NCBI GenBank assembly: GCA_040755755.1
Contig: JBFLZW010000006.1
Span: 62,001 to 126,000 of the forward strand
Direction: 5' to 3'
DNA length: 64,000 bases
DNA from: a bacterium
GTDB taxonomy: Bacteria; SZUA-182; DTGQ01
In this document: positions 2,231 through 36,910 of the stretch, in pieces
Layout of the letters: every line of letters begins with the position of its first letter
Numbering within the stretch: position 1 is the stretch's first letter
The notes under the pieces: generated by a model
What the model saw: only the letters and a program-made list of their open reading frames with translations
Told to the model about the DNA's origin: nothing
The model's database searches: none
Translations under genes and position numbers: made by a program

Positions 2231-3592
2231 CTAACACCTTACCCCCGGAACCTGCTGAAGTCTGTTCATGACCAGGCTCTTGATCTCCTCAAGACCGTGG
2301 CTGGTGGTGGATTCAAATCGCAGGACGAGCGCAGGCTGAGTGTTCGAGGCACGGATAAGGGCCCATCCATGATCGAACAGGATGCGGATGCCGTCAATAT
2401 CTATCAGCTTATATTTACTCTGGAAATATTCCTTTAAAACCTCGATGGTATGAAATTTCTCCTCATCTGCGCAGTCGACCCTGATCTCCGGGGTGGAATA
2501 GGTTTTGGGTAAATCGCAGATCAGGTCTGAAATCTTCCGTGAAGTCTCGGACAGGATTTCCGCCAGGCGGCATGAAGCGTAAATGGCATCGTCATAGCCG
2601 AAGTACCCATCGGCAATGAAGATATGGCCGCTCATCTCCCCTGCCAGCAGGGCATGTTCTTCCTTCATTTTCTTTTTAATCAGGGAGTGCCCTGTTTTCC
2701 ACATAATGGGCTTTCCGCCATGCCTGGCAATGTCCTGTTCGAGATTCTGCGAGCATTTCACCTCAAAGATAATACTGGCTCCCGGATTACGGCTCAGGAT
2801 ATCGCGGCTGAAGATGACCATGAGCTGGTCGCCCCAGATAATTTCCCCCCGATTATCCACAACACCGATCCGGTCAGAATCTCCGTCATAGGCAACCCCA
2901 AAATCAGCGCCGCTCTCTCGCACCCGCCTGATCAGGGTGGTCAGGTTTTCGGGAACCGTAGGATCGGGAAAATGGTTGGGAAAATTGCCATCCATTTCGC
3001 AAAAGAGTGCCTCGACCTCACATCCCAGGCTCTTCAGCAGATCGGGTGCAATGGGGCCGGCTGTGCCGTTGCCTGCATCCACAATAATTTTCAGTCTCCT
3101 TTTGAGCCGGATTTTTTCCCGGATCATGGCCATATAGGGCTCGACGATCTGATATGTGCTTACCGTTGCTCCCTTTCCCTGGGTAAATTCTCCCCGTTCG
3201 GCAATCTTTCGGATGTTCTGAATCTGCTCCCCATACAGGCTGTCTTTCCCATCGCAGAGCTTGAAGCCATTGAACTGAGGAGGATTATGACTGGCGGTAA
3301 TCATTATCCCGGCGTCAGGGTTCAGGTGATACAGAGAATAGTAAAAGGCCGGTGTAGGGCAGATACCGAGATCGATCACGCTGCAGCCGGTCGATAAAAG
3401 CCCTTCCACCAGGGCATTGCGAAAGCTCCCGGAGCTTAAGCGGTTATCCCTTCCGACAGTAAGGCTTTTCTTGCCCCGCTGCCTCAGATAGGTACCATAG
3501 GCTTTTCCCAGCGTGGTAACATGCTCCTCGGTCAAGTCCTTGTTTACTATACCCCGGATATCATACTCCCGAAAAATTTGTGGATTTATCAT
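2231..3592 (-). CDS. Phosphomannomutase/phosphoglucomutase (alpha-D-phosphohexomutase)
   Basis: This cytoplasmic enzyme interconverts hexose 6- and 1-phosphates (mannose or glucose) for sugar-nucleotide, polysaccharide and LPS synthesis. All four family signatures are present in order: the catalytic phosphoserine loop TASHNP, the metal loop DGDSDR, the sugar-specificity loop GEMSGH, and the C-terminal phosphate-binding RASNTQP. The frame can open 14 codons upstream at 3634. I chose the ATG at 3592 (MINPQIFREYDIRG) because a GGGAG ribosome site precedes it and family members begin close to FREYDIRG. It is the last gene of the minus-strand cluster, directly after the PilM/GspL-like gene, and is followed by a terminator. 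GEMSGH suits the AlgC/ManB type, but the sequence cannot decide between PMM and PGM. Confidence 0.93.
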   Translation of the reverse strand: MINPQIFREYDIRGIVNKDLTEEHVTTLGKAYGTYLRQRGKKSLTVGRDNRLSSGSFRNALVEGLLSTGCSVIDLGICPTPAFYYSLYHLNPDAGIMITASHNPPQFNGFKLCDGKDSLYGEQIQNIRKIAERGEFTQGKGATVSTYQIVEPYMAMIREKIRLKRRLKIIVDAGNGTAGPIAPDLLKSLGCEVEALFCEMDGNFPNHFPDPTVPENLTTLIRRVRESGADFGVAYDGDSDRIGVVDNRGEIIWGDQLMVIFSRDILSRNPGASIIFEVKCSQNLEQDIARHGGKPIMWKTGHSLIKKKMKEEHALLAGEMSGHIFIADGYFGYDDAIYASCRLAEILSETSRKISDLICDLPKTYSTPEIRVDCADEEKFHTIEVLKEYFQSKYKLIDIDGIRILFDHGWALIRASNTQPALVLRFESTTSHGLEEIKSLVMNRLQQVPGVRC

Positions 3593-3660
3593 TGCTCTCC
3601 CATCCCCTCCCATTTGGTTAGACGATAAATACATGAAATACCTGGAAATTCCTGATACGG

Positions 3661-25378: not shown

Positions 25379-25738
25379 CTAAATGCCTGATTACTTATTT
25401 AGCGAGAGAACCATTTAGATTACCACAACCAATGAGAGGAACAGAAAAAAAATTTTTAATTGACAGTAATCCCTCAGCGATGTACTCCGTCTTTTAATGC
25501 ATAGTACTTTTGACATCCACTTCTTCTGCCTCGTGTACTTATTCCGCCACTGGATTGATAATTGGAAAACCACGATGATCACCTGAAATTAAGGGAGGTG
25601 AGGATTCTATTTCGTAAATTGGATATTTACAAGCAGTAAATTTTCCTCAGCAGCGGGCTTTTATAAAGCTCATTCAGTAATTATCTTGATTATCCTCAGA
25701 TGTATGAGAGAATGTTTTATTTTTCAAGGGAGTATGAA
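25379..25738. other. Gene-free leader of the Thr-rich exported protein
   Basis: AT-rich DNA after the MITE-like element, with no supported gene. It probably contains the promoter and 5' leader of the gene at 25739; I see no clear riboswitch or strong promoter. Confidence 0.35.
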
Positions 25739-26260
25739 ATGAATTCAATGAAAAAGAACTGGTTAACCTTTGGTTTGATGATTTTGGTGTTAGTGGCCTT
25801 AACGAGTGCAGCTCAAGCCCAATTTTATCCACCTATCGTGCCTCCCTTCTATGGGTATGGCTATAGTCCGGTGCCTCCGGGTTTCGGATATTATCCAGTG
25901 CCTTCGTCAGCCACTGTCGTGCCCTATGGATATCGCGGTCCCCACGCTCTGCTCACTACCCTGGCACTCCTGGGCCTTTTGCCAACGACTACAACTACTA
26001 CCACACTTTTGCCGACGACTACAACCACCAGCACGCTTCTGCCGACCTACACTGTCCCCACTACCACGGTTCCAACCACGACCGTTGGGACCACCACTGC
26101 TCTGCTGCTGGGCGGATCGATTTCCCCGACTACTGCTTTGCTGCTGTCTTCTACTACACCTACCACAACCTATCCTACGACGACTTCTACCATTGGGACC
26201 ACGACAGCTTTACTGCTGGGAGGCACCTCTACGACAACACTGCTGGCCCTGGGTATCTAA
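25739..26260 (+). CDS. Exported Tyr/Pro- and Thr-rich low-complexity protein
   Basis: A good signal peptide (MNSMKKNWLTFGLMILVLVA, with cleavage after SAAQA) is followed by a Pro/Tyr/Gly-rich stretch (PPFYGYGYSPVPPGFGYYP) and long Thr/Leu/Pro repeats (TTTTTTLLPTTTTTSTLLP). The frame opens 13 codons earlier at 25700. I chose 25739 because AAGGGAG lies 6 nt upstream and the signal peptide then starts cleanly. It resembles the Gly/Tyr-rich exported proteins at 34.3 and 36.2 kb in design: signal peptide, repeats, and a hydrophobic end LLALGI (compare LLGLGII at 34.3 kb). A surface matrix or glycosylated role is possible but not shown. Confidence 0.75.
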   Translation: MNSMKKNWLTFGLMILVLVALTSAAQAQFYPPIVPPFYGYGYSPVPPGFGYYPVPSSATVVPYGYRGPHALLTTLALLGLLPTTTTTTTLLPTTTTTSTLLPTYTVPTTTVPTTTVGTTTALLLGGSISPTTALLLSSTTPTTTYPTTTSTIGTTTALLLGGTSTTTLLALGI

Positions 26261-29399: not shown

Positions 29400-29957
29400 T
29401 CGGGACCCCAGGCGGTTCCTTTGCCTGCGTCTCTTTGCCGGTATTTTCATTTCCCTTCGATGAGGAGAGCAGGAATCCCCCGGTGGAGAGTCTTGTCACC
29501 ACTTTATCTTTATTTTATAATTAGCCGATGTAAGAATTTGACAATCGCCACACTTGTTTACTATACTATAAATATAGCTGCCTATATAGATAGCTTATTC
29601 TGTTTATGTGTCCATGCCTTTCCTTTTTGAACTTGGAAGAGCTCTTCCTGGCGAGAACACGGGAGAGCGATTTTTTTTCAATTCTGCAGATACGTAATTA
29701 CTCAGGTAGATAGACTGCAGGTATTTGACTTGCAGAAAACCATTGAGAAAAACAGAAGCCGGAATGCAGGGAAAATGCTTTTATTCTGATTCCTGATTTC
29801 TGACTCCTGACTCCTGAATTCTCAAGAATGCAGTTTCACCAACTTGCGTAATTATGCGGATAAAATTTTACCTCATACTTGATGTGAGGAGGTATAATCC
29901 CCGGCTTTTCGACAGCCAAAAAAGAACAACTTATTTATGAGGTTAGTGAGGTTTACT
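29400..29957. repeat. Gap before the cytochrome gene with a dispersed repeat
   Basis: 29786-29822 is a copy of the TTTCTGACTCCTGACTCCTG family. CCTCA and TGAGG around 29871-29891 form a short hairpin just before the cytochrome gene. No gene is supported. I looked for a c-di-GMP riboswitch and did not find its core. Confidence 0.5.
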
Positions 29958-32900
29958 ATGGTTAAAACAAGCAAAACGAAACAAAAATTACCCTTATTCC
30001 AAGTAAACGCGGCCTGCTTCTTTTTCATGTCATTTATCATACTTTCCACTATCTTACCTTCGGCAACTCCATCTCTTGCCAATCCCCTTTGCACTATACA
30101 TCAGAGCAGCTCCCGAGGACCACAGGTCAACTGTACCTATTGCCATGCTGATCCCTATCCAGGATATCTCAATGACGGACTGCTCCTGGACGACACCACC
30201 GTCTGCGATCAATGCCACAGCCCGACAGGGCAATTTAACGGGACGGGGAGCGCCAAGGACAACTGGCAGGACGGGGGGGTGTATAACGGCAATCAATTAA
30301 AGCCGGGCAGGGAAAAATGGTGTGTCAACTGTCATGATGACGGAGCTTGTACGATCAATGGTGTTCCTGCACCCAATATTGCAGGTCTATCCATGAGCGG
30401 AGACTGGCAAAATTCGGCCACCATAGTGTATCCGACTGGCCCGGATGCGGGGAAAATCCTGGACGGGGACCCTGAAACCGGTATCAACAGCGGGGTAATT
30501 ATCTTTGATCTGGGTGATCCTGCCGTCGTTTCTCATGTCAGGCTTTATACCGCTGCTGGGGAGTCGGCCCAATGGGAACTCTGGGGAGGAAACGATCTCA
30601 ACACCTGGAGCAGAGTATTGCTTGGACCATCAGTGATTTATGCCGCACCGGTCTGGCTGACAGAGCTTGCAGGTGAATGGAATGAAATCAGGCTGGATAA
30701 ATTTATCCCGGTTCGGTACCTCAAACTGGTCAAGGCGAGTGCGTGGCCGCTCAGTGGAAATTACCTGCGCGAATTTGAATACAAAAAGGACTTGCAATAT
30801 GGCTACTACGTTACCGGCCATAAGATCGAATGCGATAACTGCCACGATCTGGCCAGCGTCCACATCGATGGTGAGAGCAGGACCTACAGTGCCAGTGCCA
30901 GTCCCAACAACTACCAGGCAGGCTACCGCCTGAAGGACGTGGAGGTGGATGGAGAGATGAAGCCTCCGCTCGAGATTCCCCGGATAGGGTGCAACAGTGG
31001 GACAAATCCCAAAACCAGCAATGACTTTGCTCTCTGCTTCGCCTGCCATAATAAATATAAGCTCCTGGGTGATGCCTATGGAGCGGACCAATTTATGCAG
31101 GATCCCCTGGCTACGAATTTCCGCAATGACGATCATGTCGATGAAAACCTGAAGGTGAAAAACGAGCACCTTCGCCATCTCCAGGGAAGGGGCTACTGCG
31201 GTAACAGTAAGGACTGGGACTCTGACTGGGATGGTACCGGAGATTCACCTCAGAGCTGCACGGCCTGTCACAATGTTCACGGTTCTCCCTCTCCGGCCAT
31301 GATCAGGCATGGAGAACTGGCCAGTACACCGGGCACTGCCAACAAATCTCCCCTGCTGAACTTTCAGTATCTCAAGAGAGGTGTGGAAGGAGATGTAACT
31401 GATTCGAGCCTGATGAGCGTTTCTGAAAGCGCTGGCGGACAGACCCAGTTCAGGGGATCGGGGCCAGGGACGATAGGGAAAAATCAGATGTGCAACATGT
31501 GTCATAATGATAAAATAACCTATCACCGTGAGCCGGTAACTTCACCCATCGCCCAGTGTCTGGACTGCCACACCACTGCGAGCGTAGCTGCAATCAATCC
31601 AAGTCATGCCACTCACCTGTCGGTGGATCCCCGTGGCCCGACCATTAGCTGCAAGATCTGCCATAGTGATTGCAGCCAAGGCAGCCCTCATCTGAAATTG
31701 ATGGCTGATGGTAAATCATTACCAGAGACTACGGCCTGCGATATCTGTCATAGCAAGGACGGTGTCTTTGACGGAGTGAACGATCAGGTGATCGGTGCTA
31801 AAATTAATTGGCAGGATGGAGTATACCAGAAGCCGGAACGCCTTGATCTGAAGCAAGGTCTGGAAAACTGGTGCGCCACTTGTCATGATGCGGGGACTTC
31901 ACTCTGCAGCGAAGTATCGGCCCCGAACGTCATGGGGGATAACGCTACCTATGGTTATAATATCAATGGCCACAAAATCGCCTGCTCGGCCTGTCACGAC
32001 CTGACCCTGGCCCACATTGATGCTGATGCCCGGACGTATTCGAAAAATTCCAATCCCCTGGATACCAGCGATCCTCATAATTACCAGAATGGATATCGGT
32101 TGAAACACCGGATGATTATCCCTCTGACTATCGGCAACCAGGGATCCGATGTCAGGGCAAGGTTTGCCCTCTGCTTTGAATGCCACGATTATGATAAAAT
32201 CATGGATAGCAGCGCTCCGTATCAGACCAATTTCCAGGATGATGATGTCAACCGGCATCTTTACCATTTAAACGCCGGAAGAACAGCCTGGGATTCCGAC
32301 TGGAATTACCTGCAGACGGACGATGAGCCTTTAGACTCCCGCCTGAGTTGTCCCGCCTGCCATAACGTACACGGTGCTCCCAATCCGGCCATGATTCGGC
32401 ATGGTGAGTTAATCAGTACTCCCGGAACCCAGGATAAGGTGCCGGCTTTGGATTTTCGCTGGTACAAAGAGGATGGGTTTACTCTGACCGTACTTGGTGA
32501 GGAGAGCCGCTATGGAGATATGCCGCCGCTTGGTGGAGCGGGAGAAGGATCCTTTGAGGATAACAGAGTATGCATTGGCTGTCATAGTGGCGGTAATCTT
32601 ATCAAATATGACCGGGTCTATCAGCATATAACCATGCCTCAAGGTACCTGGGCCAAACCTCCGCTGCCCCCATCGGTGCGAATCCTGAATCCGGTTTCAG
32701 GCAGCGAGGATGTGGCCGTAGATGGCAATTTGAGTTTTCTGCTTCTCTCAAACGGCCAGAATGCACTTGAGCTGGGCACCTTCTCGGTTTCCATTGAGGG
32801 GTCAATCTCCTATGACCAGAATTATCATTATGGCGATAGCGAACTTGAAGTTACCTCTCTTCCGTGGAGACCTCTGGATTATCAGGTGACAGTCTTCCCC

Positions 32901-33806
32901 TCGGCTAATTTCGGTGATCAGGAAAGAATCACGGTGACTATTTCTGTCCAGGATAGTGCAGGCCACCGATTGACTTCTCCTGCCTGGTCCTTTATAACCA
33001 GCGGTTCCATTCCCGTGATCTGGAAGACTCCTCAGGCAGTGCGTACCGCAACCTTCTTCTATCCGGAACGCCTGATCGATGATCAGCTGGAGACCGGAAA
33101 TCCCTTTGCCGGGGGTGCTGCTCACTCAGTAGTTTTCGATTTGGGACAAAGCTATGAAGTAAGCTGGATTCGCCTACTGCTTCCTTCTCCTGAGTCTCGC
33201 AGGTGGACAATATGGGTGAGTGACGATCCGGAAAATTTCGGGACTGCCGTGAAATCGAACTGGATAGCTCAGCCATCCTGGATTACGGTAGATAATACCG
33301 AGGCAACCTTTACGCCTGATTCTGATACCTGGCCTTCCTCGACCGCACCGGCCGGCTATATCGGAACCGATTATCAAACCTGCGCAACCTCAGCCAGTGG
33401 TGATACAGCCACCTGCACCTGGACCCCGCAGATTCCTGCGGAAGGGGATTACCTGGTTTATGCCCTCTGTATCAGCAGTGCCGACAGGGCTCCGGATGCG
33501 GTTTACACCATCAATTATGATGGCGGATCACAGTCAGTAACTGTAAACCAGCAGGGAGATGGAAAAGTGTGGAACTTTCTGGGTACCTATCATTTTGCTC
33601 AAGGAGATTCCGGCAGTATTATCCTGGGCAATGGATCCTCTTCTGACGGCTTCTTTGTAGTAGCGGATGCTATTCGGCTCGTTCCGGTGCCGGCATGGGT
33701 TCAAACTTCCGTCACTCCGAAAACAGGAAGGTATCTTAAGCTCTATACGGATATGGGGCCTTTATCTGAAGATACTATCAAGGAGGTTGACTTCGGCGGG
33801 AATTGA
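29958..33806 (+). CDS. Exported 15-haem c-type cytochrome with discoidin-, Ig- and golvesin-like domains
   Basis: After the signal peptide there are 15 CxxCH motifs between about residues 59 and 876: CTYCH, CDQCH, CVNCH, CDNCH, CFACH, CTACH, CNMCH, CLDCH, CKICH, CDICH, CATCH, CSACH, CFECH, CPACH, CIGCH. They lie in two tandem modules of the same order (NWQDG, APN, GHKI, HID, NYQ, CHNVHG). Only module 1 has a ~130-residue discoidin-like insertion (about 150-270). After the haems come an Ig-like domain (~908-1014), another discoidin-like domain (~1025-1095) and a golvesin/xanthan-lyase C-terminal-like domain (~1128-1248). The frame extends 7 codons upstream; the ATG at 29958 has GTGAGG before it. 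It is probably an extracellular or surface electron carrier. No porin or quinol oxidoreductase is adjacent. Confidence 0.9.
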   Translation: MVKTSKTKQKLPLFQVNAACFFFMSFIILSTILPSATPSLANPLCTIHQSSSRGPQVNCTYCHADPYPGYLNDGLLLDDTTVCDQCHSPTGQFNGTGSAKDNWQDGGVYNGNQLKPGREKWCVNCHDDGACTINGVPAPNIAGLSMSGDWQNSATIVYPTGPDAGKILDGDPETGINSGVIIFDLGDPAVVSHVRLYTAAGESAQWELWGGNDLNTWSRVLLGPSVIYAAPVWLTELAGEWNEIRLDKFIPVRYLKLVKASAWPLSGNYLREFEYKKDLQYGYYVTGHKIECDNCHDLASVHIDGESRTYSASASPNNYQAGYRLKDVEVDGEMKPPLEIPRIGCNSGTNPKTSNDFALCFACHNKYKLLGDAYGADQFMQDPLATNFRNDDHVDENLKVKNEHLRHLQGRGYCGNSKDWDSDWDGTGDSPQSCTACHNVHGSPSPAMIRHGELASTPGTANKSPLLNFQYLKRGVEGDVTDSSLMSVSESAGGQTQFRGSGPGTIGKNQMCNMCHNDKITYHREPVTSPIAQCLDCHTTASVAAINPSHATHLSVDPRGPTISCKICHSDCSQGSPHLKLMADGKSLPETTACDICHSKDGVFDGVNDQVIGAKINWQDGVYQKPERLDLKQGLENWCATCHDAGTSLCSEVSAPNVMGDNATYGYNINGHKIACSACHDLTLAHIDADARTYSKNSNPLDTSDPHNYQNGYRLKHRMIIPLTIGNQGSDVRARFALCFECHDYDKIMDSSAPYQTNFQDDDVNRHLYHLNAGRTAWDSDWNYLQTDDEPLDSRLSCPACHNVHGAPNPAMIRHGELISTPGTQDKVPALDFRWYKEDGFTLTVLGEESRYGDMPPLGGAGEGSFEDNRVCIGCHSGGNLIKYDRVYQHITMPQGTWAKPPLPPSVRILNPVSGSEDVAVDGNLSFLLLSNGQNALELGTFSVSIEGSISYDQNYHYGDSELEVTSLPWRPLDYQVTVFPSANFGDQERITVTISVQDSAGHRLTSPAWSFITSGSIPVIWKTPQAVRTATFFYPERLIDDQLETGNPFAGGAAHSVVFDLGQSYEVSWIRLLLPSPESRRWTIWVSDDPENFGTAVKSNWIAQPSWITVDNTEATFTPDSDTWPSSTAPAGYIGTDYQTCATSASGDTATCTWTPQIPAEGDYLVYALCISSADRAPDAVYTINYDGGSQSVTVNQQGDGKVWNFLGTYHFAQGDSGSIILGNGSSSDGFFVVADAIRLVPVPAWVQTSVTPKTGRYLKLYTDMGPLSEDTIKEVDFGGN

Positions 33807-34340: not shown

Positions 34341-35366
34341 CTAGATTATTCCTAATCCCAGTAACGACAGGCTGGATAAGCCAGCCCCAGCCAACCCAAG
34401 GCCGCCAAGGCCACCCATGGCCAGTCCGGCCAGGGGATCCATGGCTATCCCGGCGGTCAGGGGATCTAATCCGTACAGTCCACCGTATAAGCCTAATCCA
34501 CCTAATCCAGCACCATACAGTCCCAGTCCGCCCAGGGCTGGGATTCCAGCTAATCCGCCTAATGCGGCACCATACAGTCCCAGTCCGCCCAATCCATACA
34601 TTCCAGCGCCATACAATCCACCCAAGCCGTAGAGTCCAGCGCCGTACATTCCACCATAGAGTCCGGCTGTTCCGTAGAGGCTGCCGCCATAGAGTCCGCC
34701 ATAAAGGCCGCTGCCATACACTCCGCCATAAACGCCCATCCCGCCGCCATAACCAGCATATCCACCGCTTGTGTAGGTGCTGTAGCCGTATCCACTGCCG
34801 TAGGGGGAGTATCCGCCGTATGAGCCATAGCTGCTGCCATAGGGGGAATAACCATAACTGCTGCCATAAGGAGAATAGCTGCCGTAGGTGCCGTATGTAC
34901 TATAGGGAGAATAGCTGCCGTAGGGGGAGTATCCGCCATATGAGCCATAGCTGCCATAAGGGGAGTAACCATAGCTACTTCCATAGGGAGAATAGCTGCC
35001 ATAGGTGCCGTATGTACTGTAGGGAGAATAGCTGCCATAGGTGCCGTATGTACTGTAGGGAGAATAGCTGCCATAGGTGCCGTATGTGCTGTAGGGAGAA
35101 TAGCTGCCGTAGGTGCCGTATGTGCTGTAGGGAGAATAGCTGCCGTAGGTGCCGTATGTACTGTAGGGAGAATAGCTGCCATAGGTGCCGTATGTACTGT
35201 AGGGAGAATAGCTGCCATAGGTGCTATAGCTGCTGGAATAAGGATAACTACTATACGTGGAGTAGTCGTACTGAGCCCGGGAAGAGGGAATAAAAACTAT
35301 GAAATTCAGTATTAAAAGTAATGTCCAAAAACCTGGAAAGGTTAGATAGCAAGCTCTTCTCTTCAT
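34341..35366 (-). CDS. Exported Gly/Tyr/Ser-rich repeat protein
   Basis: 341 residues. A signal peptide (MKRRACYLTFPGFWTLLLIL, cleavage near SSRA) is followed by a low-complexity chain dominated by Y, S, G and P. A 12-residue unit YSPYSTYGTYGS is repeated about seven times without gaps (36-bp DNA repeats), then looser YGSYSPYG units and a Gly/Leu-rich half (GLYGGLYG, GLGLYGA) with a hydrophobic tail LLGLGII. Start chosen at 35366: AAGGAG lies 10 nt upstream, whereas the M at 35375 is too close to it and the one at 35399 has no site. No enzyme motif. It is probably an extracellular fibre, coat or adhesin. Confidence 0.75.
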   Translation of the reverse strand: MKRRACYLTFPGFWTLLLILNFIVFIPSSRAQYDYSTYSSYPYSSSYSTYGSYSPYSTYGTYGSYSPYSTYGTYGSYSPYSTYGTYGSYSPYSTYGTYGSYSPYSTYGTYGSYSPYSTYGTYGSYSPYGSSYGYSPYGSYGSYGGYSPYGSYSPYSTYGTYGSYSPYGSSYGYSPYGSSYGSYGGYSPYGSGYGYSTYTSGGYAGYGGGMGVYGGVYGSGLYGGLYGGSLYGTAGLYGGMYGAGLYGLGGLYGAGMYGLGGLGLYGAALGGLAGIPALGGLGLYGAGLGGLGLYGGLYGLDPLTAGIAMDPLAGLAMGGLGGLGLAGAGLSSLSLLGLGII

Positions 35367-36169
35367 TATTTCCATGCTCCTTATAATTAGGTAAAACAAA
35401 CGGTCTTGAGTTCCAGTAACCAGAATACTCCCATCTCAGCGTACAACTTATTTATTCATTCACCCCCCTTGTCCCCTATCCTGCACAGACTCACGCATAC
35501 AGTGATCCAGCAGGTTCGCCCTCAAAGTCACTTTTTTTGCGATATCTGAAGAAGGCAGCAAAAAGAATGCCATAGAGCTTGGACCCTCATGTTATCCAGG
35601 ATTTGTGGCAGGACAGGGCAGGTAAGGCTTATGTACATCCTTAAGTAGAATCTTTTCAAGAAATGGGATCGTAATATTTCAAGTTCCCTGGAATACTTTG
35701 GACTGAAAGTCCCTCCATTGACGCTGGCTTGCAGGAAATCATACAAAATATACTTTAATCATAAACCCTATGTCATTATTATCCACTTTTTGAGAGTTGA
35801 CATACCCTAATTCAGGGGGGACACATTTTTCCTAACCAGCTATTTTTTCTCCGGAAAGACGGATCAGCCCGGAAAAGAAAATTTTTTCCGGATCTGGTGA
35901 AATATTTGCATAAAACTCCAGGGTAGAATGGAGAAGCTTTTTCAGCAGAGATATCTGTTTATTGTTTTGGTAAAGTAAATCATGACTGGTAAGAAACCTT
36001 GTCATAACTATAAGCTTTAATGCAGCCTCTGGAGAGTTTTTTGACACTACCAGAGATATTTTATCAGCAGAGGAGGTGGATAAAACCAGCGATTTTACTC
36101 GAGTTTTCAGGTTTTAGGGATCGTTTTAGGGACTATGTGGATTAATATTCGCTTTCTTGAGGTAGAAAT
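35367..36169. other. Gene-free divergent region between two Gly/Tyr-rich genes
   Basis: About 800 nt between diverging genes. Small frames exist on the minus strand (35528-35746 and 35832-36047) but have neither ribosome site nor recognisable product. CTCTGG...CCAGAG and GGAAAA...TTTTTTCC inverted repeats are present near 35870-36055. It probably carries promoters for both genes. Confidence 0.35.
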
Positions 36170-36910
36170 ATGAAGAGGGAGTTCTTGAATCTTTGTAAGG
36201 TGAGTTTGGTTCTTATCCTTTCTGTAATGTTACTTTCAGTTATGAGTGTCAGACAAGCCCATAGTTATTATGGAGGGCTGTATGGAGGGCTGTATGGTGG
36301 ACTATACGGCGGTCTGTATGGCGGTCTGTATGGCGGTCTGGGTGGTCTGTACGGCCTGAGCAGCCTTTATGGCGGCCTCTATGGCATGTACGGCGGCCTC
36401 TACGGATTGTACGGTGGAGGCCTGTATGGGCTGTATGGCGCTTATAGCCCCTTTAGTCTCCAGAATATGTATTTCCCGATTCAAACCGGAACGGGCTTGA
36501 CCTATCAGGTACCTTTCCTCCAGATCGCTCCGCTTCTTGGAATTGCGGGATTGTATAACAGCCTGTTTCCCAATTTGTTTGGTTCTTCCTCTTCTGGTTA
36601 TGGGAGAGCTTCTCAGCAGGTTATCGCCGCTCTGTATACTGCTCTGACTACTGATCCGGTTCTGGGGCCGGTCCTCTTGGCTGATACAGTTACCTTGAAT
36701 ATTCTGGCCGCTGATGCCGTTCTGGCTGCAGTTGTCGCCGGAGACCCGTTATGGCTGTCTTTCCACGGCTGGCAGGTATTACCACCGAATATTGTCCCTG
36801 CACAGCCTCTCTTGCTTTCAAAGATGGCGGTATCCTGTACTCAGTGTCATTCCAATGTAAACAGCGGCACTTTGTTAGCTGTTGTTCCACTGCCGACTCA
36901 GTTGATATAA
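36170..36910 (+). CDS. Exported Gly/Tyr-rich protein with a C-terminal CxxCH haem motif
   Basis: 246 residues. A signal peptide (VSLVLILSVMLLSVMSVRQA, cleaved near AHS) leads into tandem YGGLYGGL units (about residues 34-95), then a less repetitive domain rich in Ala, Leu and Pro (LLADTVTLNILAADAVLAAV). Near the C-terminus is CTQCH (Cys223-His227), a standard c-type haem attachment motif. A single haem site in a Gly/Tyr-rich exported protein is unusual. GAGG lies 7 nt before the ATG. It is near the multihaem cytochrome gene and a second Gly/Tyr-rich gene, suggesting a shared extracellular structure. No named family is recognised. Confidence 0.75.
   Translation: MKREFLNLCKVSLVLILSVMLLSVMSVRQAHSYYGGLYGGLYGGLYGGLYGGLYGGLGGLYGLSSLYGGLYGMYGGLYGLYGGGLYGLYGAYSPFSLQNMYFPIQTGTGLTYQVPFLQIAPLLGIAGLYNSLFPNLFGSSSSGYGRASQQVIAALYTALTTDPVLGPVLLADTVTLNILAADAVLAAVVAGDPLWLSFHGWQVLPPNIVPAQPLLLSKMAVSCTQCHSNVNSGTLLAVVPLPTQLI

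Follow-up and report, generated by a model that had tools for sequence, protein, structure and literature searches.

Monohaem proteins tethered by low-complexity sequence are already known. The monohaem domains of Geobacter sulfurreducens PgcA are parted by (PT)x repeats and the protein works by tethered diffusion (PMC11520253, PMC5732950); its mineral binding owes little to the linkers (PMC11520253), and some putative homologues have a single CxxCH (PMC5732950). Compared by its description, PgcA appears to be the closest functional analogue, similar in kind and not a homologue, of the protein studied here. This protein, P0001, is the 246-aa product of an open reading frame at 36170..36910 (+) in the window, the whole 64,000-nucleotide stretch of DNA that we analyzed. 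Like PgcA, P0001 combines low-complexity repeats with a monohaem c-type motif, is predicted to be exported and comes from a host rich in multihaem cytochromes. In PgcA, three monohaem domains are combined with a lipid anchor and (PT)x repeats; P0001 instead has YGGL repeats, one near-C-terminal CxxCH and an otherwise haem-free family. The features of PgcA-like proteins, namely several monohaem domains, PT or PA repeats and a lipid anchor, were thus not found in P0001, which lacks a lipobox Cys at its predicted cleavage site.

Other known groups share single features with P0001. Class II cytochromes c (c', c-556) carry CxxCH near the C-terminus, as P0001 does, and the P0001 tail is, at low confidence, predicted to be helical; P0001 differs from them in its candidate distal His 24 residues before CxxCH, in the Gly/Tyr repeat ahead and in having no match to their Pfam family at E up to 1. 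Silks and cell-wall glycine-rich proteins are Gly/Tyr-rich structural proteins with short Gly-Tyr repeats, and P0001 resembles them in composition and in such repeats but is bacterial, has no Pfam match and bears a haem motif. With OmcS, OmcZ and MtrC it shares the c-type haem motif, and multihaem genes are abundant in its genome; unlike those proteins, it has one motif per chain, short of the two or more that define a multihaem protein, and hence its monomer contains no unbroken chain of haems. The open literature yielded no precedent for a Gly/Tyr-rich or YGGL-type repeat with a haem motif. What is new here is a predicted secreted monohaem protein on an apparently undescribed repeat scaffold.

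We compared the window genome (G000) with a congener (G001) and with further genomes of the same order (G002, G003 and G004); orthologues of P0001 were present in G001 and G002. The reading frame proved exactly as the first-pass annotation had given it, and the signal peptide, tandem Gly/Tyr units and C-terminal CTQCH described there were all recovered. By eye, a Shine-Dalgarno-like GAGG lies ~10 bases upstream of the ATG. Residues 1-32 (36170..36265, +) form an apparent Sec signal peptide, predicted by eye and by family comparison, with a Lys/Arg start, a hydrophobic core and an A-x-A/S-like site before YYGG (...RQAHS|YYGG). Cleavage just before the repeat, which opens at 36266, is supported because family members show A-x-A|YYG at the same place. 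The mature chain would then run from a YGGL repeat through a 47-aa module, also present in paralogues, to a CxxCH tail of ~108 aa. The YGGL tract spans residues 33-92 (36266..36445, +); counted over ~60 residues (~33-93), this region contains 26 Gly, 16 Tyr and 14 Leu, and its units are encoded in part by a 12-bp tandem DNA repeat at 36269-36340 (six copies, 86% match). The module (YSPFSLQNMYFPIQTGTGLTYQVPFLQIAPLLGIAGLYNSLFPNLF) occupies residues ~92-137 (36446..36580, +) and was delimited in a 15-sequence alignment with the consensus SPFGLQNMYYxIxTGTGLxYQVPFLQIAPLLGIAGLYNxLFPxLFN. The tail, residues 138-246 (36581..36907, +), bears the CTQCH haem-attachment motif at residues 223-227 (36836..36850, +) and the HGW His199 (codon 36764..36766, +), a candidate sixth haem ligand. 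The mature chain has exactly two Cys (223 and 226) and two His (199 and 227), and CxxCH arises in ~1e-4 of shuffled versions of it.

The tail appears specific to this lineage. In 386 genomes, a profile of residues 138-246 recovered only P0001 and its orthologues (G001:C157 and G002:C11), besides a weak match in G181 that falls in an unrelated Ig-like ORF and was rejected as chance; G003 and G004 yielded no tail in this search. Whole P0001 had no match in Pfam (E up to 1), NCBIfam, PHROGs or the plasmids searched, and the tail had none among PDB sequences or in the phages and viral contigs searched. C-terminal identity of the orthologues is 86% and 67%. In all three tail sequences, CxxCH and the HGW His are invariant, the CxxC residues are the only Cys of the mature chain, and the His of CxxCH and of HGW are its only His. 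Four conserved residues at ~63% tail identity would not by themselves be strong evidence; the weight lies in their combination with the absence of every other Cys and His. Met219, near CxxCH, varies among the three sequences, making His199 the better sixth-ligand candidate. Over the last 100 codons, the window and G001 differ by 32 synonymous and 16 nonsynonymous changes, which fits purifying constraint on the reading frame. Structure prediction was of low confidence, with AlphaFold giving a pLDDT of 37 for full-length P0001 and of 45 for its last 155 aa run with 15 rows. Both runs placed a beta-hairpin and helix in the 47-aa module and helices in the tail; the CxxCH region scored below 35, and neither model defined a haem pocket.

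P0001 belongs to a larger family. A degenerate codon pattern for YGGLYG occurred 143 times in its genome, 140 times in G001, 26 in G002, 11 in G003 and 47 in G004; the count was 0-3 in 55 other genomes, the same range as for a reversed control pattern. A search of the P0001 genome returned 40 matching stretches. The family ORFs that we read open with a common signal peptide and a YGGL tract and continue into varied C-terminal modules. P0001 shows the marks of this YGGL-repeat, LQNMYY-module family, with the A-x-A/S|YYG start, the YGGL tract and the 47-aa module, after which its own tail follows. Among the 386 genomes, strong matches to the 47-aa module were confined to four of a single order; a weak one (E 1.5e-4) falls within a frame of 411 aa (L058, G230:C17:164876-164986) in a genome that belongs to another class. 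A second C-terminal module of ~117 aa (EQxGxWxGxW...MTLNLVxDPL...) was seen at L008, L001, L015, L086 and other loci (G000 C5, C34, C61 and C87). It has at least 15 copies in each of G000 and G001, was confined, in a search of 290 genomes, to five of this order and had no convincing relative in Pfam or the PDB. On sequence grounds, we regard the family as a large modular set of apparently secreted proteins, expanded in one little-known bacterial order. With two modules that lack a convincing Pfam match, it appears to be undescribed in the literature searched.

Within this set, the predicted haem site stands out. P0001 and its two orthologues are the only family members with a haem-attachment motif among those read: ~30 other YGGL ORFs lack CxxCH, and most lack any Cys or His. 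The motif is thus conserved and specific to one member, to which it has been added. The haem-free paralogues read in the P0001 genome number ~25, a lower bound counted from loci read. The first-pass annotation had held that homologues without CxxCH would count against a haem-bearing protein. The outcome is divided, since the two orthologues keep both the motif and the upstream His while the other YGGL ORFs do not have the motif.

The genome is apparently equipped to attach haem. A ResB gene (E 2e-95) adjoins a CcsA-type gene at C17:20.3-22.5 kb, a pair that we assign by sequence to System II cytochrome c biogenesis, and ~18 ORFs with doubled CxxCH motifs were counted over the listed open frames. 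Near P0001, the 15-haem cytochrome and the second Gly/Tyr-rich gene reported earlier are both in place. The cytochrome (29937..33806, +, 1,289 aa) has 15 CxxCH by our count, with Cytochrome_C7, Paired_CXXCH and C-terminal golvesin-C matches. Several paralogues that match it closely over part of its length occur in G000 (C18, C11 and C10) and G003, a lineage-specific expansion. The Gly/Tyr-rich gene (34341..35399, −) runs divergently from P0001 and encodes an apparently secreted protein without CxxCH, in which SPYSTYGTYGSY repeats (36-bp units, ~9.6 copies) pass into YGGL/GLYG repeats. In G001, this divergent pair is kept and is followed by pgm and not by a cytochrome, and the 15-haem orthologue lies on contig C41, apart from the P0001 orthologue on C157; we accordingly downgraded the 15-haem adjacency as functional evidence. 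Gene order is rearranged between G001:C157 (L046) and window positions 2.2-35 kb, with pgm (window 2231-3634) adjoining the Gly/Tyr-rich gene in G001. In G002, convergent genes for 8-, 8- and 4-CxxCH cytochromes begin 180 bp past the P0001 orthologue. In two of the three genomes there are thus multihaem genes no more than ~3 kb away, but the cytochromes differ between them and as a functional hint are suggestive only. Octahaem relatives in G000, G001 and G003 had no YGGL gene in the flanks examined, which told further against cytochrome adjacency as evidence of function.

These observations are best accounted for, with a confidence that we would call middling for the statement as a whole, if P0001 is secreted as a monohaem c-type protein on a lineage-specific YGGL scaffold that provides a surface or matrix redox site. 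Haem attachment, taken separately, is considerably firmer and, judged from sequence features, probable. After export through Sec, the System II machinery would attach one haem to the tail at C223/C226; H227 would be the proximal ligand and H199, as its conservation suggests, probably the distal one. The YGGL tract and 47-aa module would place P0001 in a surface or matrix assembly with haem-free paralogues, and its haem could then equip that layer with a tethered redox site for electron exchange, the partners being multihaem cytochromes or external acceptors. The intact ORF, the repeats, the conserved CxxCH and H199, codon constraint on the tail, the lack of CxxCH in the YGGL paralogues, ResB/CcsA-type genes, the cytochrome-rich genome and the three cytochrome genes beside the G002 orthologue count in favor of this explanation; the low AlphaFold confidence, the lack of a cytochrome-family match for the tail, the varying neighboring cytochromes and the existence of only three tail sequences count against it. 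A periplasmic location is possible.

The main competing explanations concern what the scaffold does and whether the motif holds haem. P0001 might be a monohaem electron carrier, periplasmic or tethered to the outer membrane, that belongs to no structural assembly and uses YGGL as a mere flexible or sticky linker. Its single CxxCH per chain, the low-complexity linkers between the haem domains of PgcA (PMC11520253) and the multihaem cytochromes close by in two of three genomes would agree with this; the YGGL tract nevertheless makes up most of many paralogues that have no haem motif, an argument that it has its own role, and we consider the linker-only carrier unlikely. Somewhat less likely still is that CxxCH binds no haem and that C223, C226 and H227, perhaps with H199, form a redox-active disulfide or a Zn/Cu site. 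A CxxCH motif alone is no proof of haem, the tail matches no cytochrome family, and a metal site with four ligands would fit the Cys/His pattern as well. Against this, the motif is apparently exported in a host with System II and many c-type cytochromes, a setting in which exported CxxCH is normally haemylated.

We assign very low probability to a catalytic or sensing haem, for example one that drives peroxide-dependent dityrosine cross-linking of YGGL chains in a coat and is not an electron relay. The Tyr-rich repeat could conceivably be oxidised by haem on the scaffold, but the conserved second His suggests a six-coordinate bis-His haem, usually a poor peroxidase, and no supporting literature was found. 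Least probable, by a little, is that CxxCH arose by chance or is decaying and has no function; the restriction of the tail to three sequences and its absence from G003 and G004 would be compatible with this, whereas the shuffle frequency, the retention of CxxCH with its His partner in two genera and the constrained codon changes oppose it.

Returning to the surface or matrix redox protein that we prefer, the suggestion in the first-pass annotation of a haem-bearing structural or conductive protein can be split. A haem-bearing repeat protein is likely, P0001 being one specialised member of a family that looks structural. The conductive part found no support: there is no evidence of polymerisation, and one haem per chain gives no continuous haem chain unless a polymer packs very densely. 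An extended version, in which a coat or fibre of the ~25 YGGL paralogues is doped with c-type haem by P0001 and multihaem cytochromes feed the dispersed monohaem subunits, strikes us as doubtful; if true, it would amount to a protein matrix that owes its redox activity to these subunits and not to a polymer of cytochromes. At the level of sequence, the locus documents a family of repeat-scaffold proteins that has expanded in a single bacterial order, itself uncharacterised; one member of the family has a conserved haem-attachment site. Should the haem be real, P0001 would use low-complexity sequence to tether a single extracytoplasmic haem in a way different from that of PgcA, and a structural secretome could be linked to extracellular electron transfer.

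Low-complexity sequence also occurs in other proteins of these genomes. The 8-CxxCH cytochromes of G002 (L048:14786-18629) and their relatives (L094, L095 and L096) have long low-complexity C-terminal tails; conservation is seen in the haem part, and tail composition changes from Phe/Asn-rich in G002 and G003 to Ser/Gly/Pro-rich in G000 and G001. At window positions 25700-26260 (+), a small, apparently exported protein with no Pfam match is of low complexity and rich in Thr and Leu-Leu-Pro (TTTTTTLLPTTTTT).
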